64,000 bases of DNA from Brachyspira intermedia PWS/A. Lineage in GTDB: Bacteria; Spirochaetota; Brachyspiria; Brachyspirales; Brachyspiraceae. Location of the stretch: contig NC_017243.1 in assembly GCF_000223215.1 (NCBI RefSeq), positions 2,294,001-2,358,000 on the forward strand. Direction: 5' to 3'. Under the pieces are notes generated by a model that saw only the letters and a list, made by a program, of their open reading frames with translations, had not been told where the DNA came from and made no database searches. Shown here piece by piece: positions 36,171 to 36,656 of this stretch (position 1 is the stretch's first letter; each line of letters opens with the position of its first letter). Made by a program: the position numbers and the translations under genes.

Positions 36171-36656
36171 TTATTCTTTTTTTAATAATTCGGCTACTAT
36201 CTCATCAAGTTCTTCAGGCTTTACTCTAGGATCATAGCGTCCAACTATATTTCCTTGCCTATCTATTAAAAACTTACCGAAATTCCATCTTATTTTATCA
36301 ACGCCTTCTTCAGTAGGCTTTTCTGTTCTTAAATAAGTAAATAAAGGATCAGCATTTTTACTATTAACTTTAACTTTGTCAAATAGCTTGAAAGTAATGC
36401 CGTATTTCTCCTTTCTAAACTCAGCAATTTCTTCAATAGGTTCTTTAGCCTGTCCGCCGAATTGATTACAAGGAAAGTCTAATATTTCAAAACCATCCTT
36501 TTTATATTTTTTGTATAAATCCTGCAACGCAGAATATTGTTTTGTGAATCCTCATTTAGTAGCGGTATTAATTATAAGTAATACCTTTCCCTCATACTTT
36601 TTTAATTTCACATCTTTACCTTCAGCATCTTTAACTGTGTAGTCGTATATACTCAT
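36171..36656 (-). CDS. Glutathione peroxidase, probable selenoprotein (in-frame UGA as Sec35)
   Basis: Reading from the ATG at 36656 (GGAGG five bases upstream) gives 161 codons with one in-frame TGA at 36554-36552, codon 35. The surroundings are INTATK-(UGA)-GFTKQY, exactly where the family has its catalytic Sec or Cys (NTATKCGFT). The rest of the catalytic set is present: Gln in [10 protein letters not shown] and Trp-Asn in RWNFGKF. A hairpin fitting a bacterial SECIS follows the UGA. The enzyme would reduce hydroperoxides with thiols. If UGA is taken as stop, only a TTG-started fragment (36527-36171) lacking the active site remains. A nonsense mutation is the alternative, but position and hairpin make selenocysteine much more likely. 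It is followed by a terminator; tpx lies upstream on the same strand with its own terminator. Confidence 0.85.
36519..36554 (-). promoter_or_regulatory. Candidate bacterial SECIS element with the Sec UGA codon
   Basis: On the minus strand TGA (36554-36552) is followed after 16 bases by ATTCTGC, loop GTT, GCAGGAT: a 7-bp stem (one G-T pair) whose loop G is 24 bases past the UGA. Size, distance and GU-bearing apical loop agree with what SelB needs in known bacterial SECIS elements. Confidence 0.7.

Follow-up and report, generated by a model that had tools for sequence, protein, structure and literature searches.

The interrupted reading frame

The stretch analysed here, 64,000 nucleotides of Brachyspira intermedia PWS/A (contig NC_017243.1, positions 2,294,001 to 2,358,000; hereafter the window), carries on its minus strand a glutathione peroxidase (GPx) gene that is interrupted by an in-frame UGA codon. 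Brachyspira is an intestinal spirochaete. The host genome consists of two contigs (3,308,048 bp) and has Brachyspira as its nearest named relatives. With high confidence, we predict from the sequence that this gene encodes a bacterial selenoprotein GPx, with selenocysteine (Sec) read from the UGA at the active site. The features central to this prediction, including a hairpin resembling a bacterial selenocysteine insertion sequence (bSECIS), are listed below.

36171..36656, minus strand: Sec-GPx coding sequence of 161 codons, from the ATG at 36656 to the TAA ending at 36171 (translation with TGA as U)
36552..36554, minus strand: TGA, codon 35, assigned to Sec at the peroxidatic position (aligned codons in orthologues)
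36662..36666, minus strand: Shine-Dalgarno site GGAGG with a 5-nt spacer to the ATG (sequence)
36519..36535, minus strand: bSECIS-like hairpin with a 7-bp stem and GUU loop, starting 17 nt after the UGA, i.e., with a 16-nt spacer (fold and conservation)

The TGA at codon 35 (36554-36552), in the context NTATK-U-GFTKQ, is the sole internal stop of the frame. The translated protein matches the Pfam family PF00255 (GSHPx) with E=1.4e-39 and 134.5 bits against a cut-off of 27, and the match covers residues 3-110 of the protein and positions 1-108 of the 108 in the profile. It can be aligned over its whole length with GPx of solved structure, e.g., 3cmi, and the complete catalytic set is present (U35, Gln65, Trp124 and Asn125). 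A GGAG-type site also lies upstream of most GPx orthologues. A preceding sequence-only reading had described the GGAGG site, the ATG and the 161-codon frame with its single TGA at the catalytic position and with intact Gln, Trp and Asn partners; all of these coordinates proved correct, while the minus strand had been left unstated. It had also anticipated a truncated product in ordinary annotation. Indeed, the standard code gives only a 118-amino-acid open reading frame (ORF) at this gene, starting from the TTG at 36527. In a read-through scan of the window (at least 15 codons before the TGA and more than 100 after it), the GPx gene was the only case, and no other credible TGA read-through gene was found.

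Orthologues were compared at codon 35. The 30 Brachyspira records overlap, as some contigs (L019-L023) belong to the same genomes as other entries, and are not a species count; 21 of them have TGA and nine a Cys (cysteine) codon. Counted by genome, 16 have TGA and nine Cys among the 25 that hold a GPx orthologue. The Cys orthologues read as one ORF. In the 75 loci that a genome scan found outside Brachyspira, the corresponding codon is always TGC or TGT. TGA at the catalytic codon was also detected in four genomes assigned to Treponema by resemblance (loci L159-L162), where a stem of 6-7 bp starts 15-16 nt after the UGA. The TGA codons flagged in two further genomes (G224 and G218) do not lie at the catalytic codon. 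The host genome harbors a second GPx (C2:2664783-2665205, locus L100), which is of the Cys type and possesses a resolving Cys; many Brachyspira genomes, though not all, contain this paralogue.

The hairpin and the decoding of UGA

The hairpin downstream of the UGA has the sequence ATTCTGC-GTT-GCAGGAT and a minimum free energy of -6.1 kcal/mol. A bSECIS is expected to have its apical loop 16-37 nt after the UGA, a loop of 3-9 nt and a G at loop position 1 or 2 (PMC13188914). The 3-nt loop GUU, whose first base is a G at +24, agrees with this rule. Every one of the 21 orthologue records with TGA retains the hairpin, 16-17 nt downstream of this codon. In two divergent haplotypes a U-G pair is replaced by U-A or C-G, and the loop is widened to AGUUG with the G in position 2. 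Among 16 distinct Sec genes, the proportion of synonymous differences (pS) in codons 40-47, which lie over the hairpin, is 0.000, compared with 0.37 for the median 8-codon window. This synonymous freeze ranks first of 143 windows and was matched by six of 20,000 random 8-codon sets. In the Cys orthologues, pS in the same codons is 0.60, above their own median, and the hairpin is broken in eight of the nine.

Several observations weigh against the Sec reading of the UGA. The hairpin is short and AU-rich, and between 9 and 25 of 200 shuffled sequences fold as well, so that the fold alone is not significant; bSECIS-like hairpins whose stem reaches 7 bp or more occur at 2.1% of the window's coding positions. 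Formal covariation in the stem was absent, being no better than in shuffles, with one pair varying between UG, UA and CG and four of seven pairs invariant; however, this analysis is uninformative because the stem hardly varies. In addition, one genome (G011) has TGT at codon 35 and yet an intact hairpin, and the association of hairpin and UGA is thus imperfect. It is the conservation across orthologues, rather than a single fold, that raises the candidate hairpin above chance.

The Sec machinery was searched for in the host genome. A tRNA-Sec with UCA anticodon is present, selA and selB lie directly downstream of it, and selD is found elsewhere; all four genes score over their curated cut-offs. 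Decoding of UGA as Sec, which the sequence-only reading had proposed for this genome, is thereby supported at the level of gene content by all four genes. The same reading had described the 7-bp stem, GTT loop and 16-nt spacer that agree with the bSECIS rule, and the TGA and hairpin recur in most Brachyspira relatives instead of being confined to one strain, although nine relatives carry Cys, eight of them without the hairpin.

A cluster of three Thioredoxin_3 genes (G000:C2:2760863-2761856, loci L168-L170) was observed in the host genome, two of which contain a UGA in frame close to the N terminus (MAIEKIQFG-U-GCLPDP... and ...GKGGCG-U-GPSITP...). Selenoproteins of this family were predicted in all Brachyspira analysed (PMC5330540), and the UGA-bearing genes match them. 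A search for GrdA (PF04723) gave no match in the host genome and none in any control genome, and is thus uninformative.

Three other explanations of the interrupted frame were considered. The TGA might be a real nonsense mutation in a decaying pseudogene with a dead downstream frame, and the intact Cys codon of some relatives and the Cys paralogue elsewhere in the genome are compatible with such decay. However, the TGA is common to many species, a second stop or frameshift is lacking, and the hairpin shows no synonymous change. Moreover, the ratio of non-synonymous to synonymous differences (pN/pS) among the Sec genes is 0.083 before the TGA and 0.058 after it, so that purifying selection acts on either side of it, which makes a pseudogene extremely improbable. 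The same values bear on the idea that translation starts internally at the TTG at 36527 and yields a 118-amino-acid fragment that lacks the catalytic residue and has a separate regulatory function. An ORF finder does report this fragment, but the 34 codons that precede the TGA belong to the same fold and are likewise constrained by purifying selection, the ribosome-binding site lies at the upstream ATG, and the Cys orthologues form one ORF; an internal start is hardly credible.

Low-level insertion of Cys or Trp at UGA occurs in other systems. The codon might thus be decoded by near-cognate suppression, or as Trp or Cys, instead of Sec. Against this stand the four Sec genes, the position of the codon at a Cys/Sec site and a SECIS-like hairpin that is conserved essentially only together with UGA; furthermore, the standard code applies elsewhere in the window, which holds no other TGA-interrupted gene of such quality. 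We regard this type of decoding as very unlikely, and Sec at codon 35 as the reading to be preferred.

Sec and Cys alleles within Brachyspira

In five genomes, representing five species (G004, G005, G006, G008 and G018), a TGC allele occupies the locus at which close relatives have TGA. The locus with the Cys allele adjoins tpx, rlu and a large motility-linked gene, as in the Sec relatives. A loss of the Sec machinery as the origin of the Cys alleles was ruled out, since tRNA-Sec and selA are kept in all complete genomes of the genus.

The history of the alleles was followed by comparing gene trees. A selA-only tree was used in place of a tree of the selA-selB region, in which an extra gene in six genomes produces an artificial long branch. 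This extra gene, which separates selA from selB in G005, G006, G007, G022, G024 and G025 (L139-L141, L155, L157 and L158), comprises about 380 codons; it is lipoprotein-like and begins MKK.FILITLIFINI.SCN. On the selA tree, five changes between Sec and Cys are needed, and a clade of the five Cys genomes is rejected (p 1e-34), as it is by the tpx tree (p 0.007). In contrast, the GPx tree, which was built without the Sec codon and the hairpin, is compatible with such a clade (p 0.37) and rejects the groupings of selA (p 0.0145 to 5e-40). Identity also switches along the locus: G008 and G009 are 96-98% identical in tpx and 84-90% in GPx, whereas the identity of G008 to G005 is 78-86% further upstream but 94-96% over most of GPx. 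Because gene and genome trees conflict, the Sec and Cys alleles were probably exchanged by recombination, and allele replacement is probably the simplest explanation of both the tree conflict and the identity switch.

Simple parsimony on the GPx tree gives one gain of Sec from Cys and favours a Cys ancestor. The resolving-Cys column of the alignment (column 81) points in the other direction. A Cys stands there in 85 of 85 Cys-GPx outside Brachyspira and in five of five Brachyspira paralogues; every Brachyspira GPx orthologue, whether of the Sec or the Cys type, has Arg, and the four Treponema-like Sec-GPx have Ala. That Sec and Cys orthologues alike lack the resolving Cys argues against the Cys ancestor, and the orthologues of the Cys type appear to descend from a Sec enzyme. 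In G011 (locus L101, G011:C81:57049-57531), TGT replaces TGA, the complete hairpin is retained and the gene is placed inside the Sec group; in this one draft genome the allele is probably a recent mutation from Sec to Cys. It is tempting to speculate that Sec- and Cys-GPx are exchangeable alleles of one locus that spread by homologous recombination between species, with the Cys versions derived from a Sec ancestor, a scenario to which we assign about an even chance.

Putative function, known relatives and neighbouring genes

In the proposed pathway, SelD would provide selenophosphate and SelA would convert seryl-tRNA-Sec to Sec-tRNA-Sec(UCA). SelB would bind the hairpin 17-33 nt downstream and deliver the charged tRNA to the UGA at codon 35, and Sec insertion would let translation proceed until the stop codon at position 162. 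The predicted product is a monomeric GPx of the phospholipid hydroperoxide (PHGPx) type with Sec as the peroxidatic residue. Its selenolate at residue 35, activated by Gln65, Trp124 and Asn125, would reduce H2O2 or organic peroxides, and the resulting selenenic acid would be regenerated by an external thiol. We infer Sec insertion, peroxidase activity and the nature of the reductant from sequence. Since column 81 is Arg, an external thiol, and not an internal disulfide, would have to reduce the selenenic acid. PF04262 glutamate-cysteine ligase was not found in the host genome, with a positive control in E. coli, in a search that did not extend to other ligase families or thiol uptake. The use of glutathione by the enzyme is therefore doubtful rather than excluded, and the name 'glutathione' peroxidase may be a misnomer. 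Most likely, the electron donor is a thioredoxin-type protein or a low-molecular-weight thiol, of which the former is our preferred guess.

The GPx of B. pilosicoli and B. murdochii were listed among proteins with predicted Sec sites by Wanchanthuek et al. in 2010, i.e., in the same genus and protein family as the gene described here (PMC2897892). The B. pilosicoli gene appears there as two adjacent ORFs (BP951000_2065/2066), as expected for a break at UGA (PMC2897892). Both are almost certainly orthologous to the present gene, which extends a known prediction to another species and is less novel than first supposed. The passage on Brachyspira GPx in that source is one sentence, which contains no SECIS, machinery or Cys/Sec comparison (PMC2897892). 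The newer point is that some Brachyspira relatives carry a Cys version at the same locus. Among other spirochaetes, a Sec-GPx of T. denticola was predicted in 2006 (PMC1794560), and a review lists a UxxT GPX-like protein, WP_010957027.1 (PMC13188914). The Treponema-like proteins share with Brachyspira GPx the Sec position, the hairpin layout and the absence of the resolving Cys; they are about 44-46% identical to it and differ in having Ala, not Arg, at column 81.

Vertebrate GPX4 is a monomeric Sec peroxidase as well, and GPX4 structures such as 7l8m are sequence matches in the PDB. Animals decode UGA by means of a SECIS in the 3' untranslated region, as in GPX4, whereas the hairpin of Brachyspira GPx lies in the coding region. 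For animals it has been proposed that Sec made the resolving Cys dispensable and that this residue was subsequently lost (PMC8614756); the animal and Brachyspira enzymes would be alike in this respect. Bacterial Cys-GPx, e.g., the paralogue of the host genome, have the same fold and the same Gln, Trp and Asn partners, but differ by Cys in place of Sec and by the presence of the resolving Cys.

Standard annotation would give an inactive fragment for a gene that looks like a working part of peroxide defence. If the Sec-GPx works, this defence would depend on selenium. In Brachyspira, nature provides matched pairs: Sec and Cys alleles are more than 90% identical, occupy the same locus and occur in genomes that have both retained the decoding machinery, so that the reasons for which bacteria retain or abandon Sec can be tested directly.

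Around the GPx gene, the following features were identified.

36131..36164, minus strand: intrinsic terminator directly after the GPx stop codon (pattern scan)
36695..36723, minus strand: terminator-like hairpin between tpx and GPx (pattern scan)
36753..37250, minus strand: Cys-type thiol peroxidase (Tpx), upstream of GPx (NCBIfam NF001808, 195 bits; cut-off 123)

Tpx is kept as the upstream neighbour of GPx in most Brachyspira. The terminator-like hairpin between the two genes suggests that GPx is transcribed separately or subject to attenuation. On the other side of GPx, a gene of the PDDEXK_2 (Rpn-type) transposase family is split into two overlapping ORFs (35140-36004 of the window); the homologue at this position shows 41 to 90% identity between species, and this side of the locus is thus variable. 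Further away, at 31399-33758, two adjoining lipoprotein-like ORFs contain leucine-rich repeats that are BspA-like by eye.
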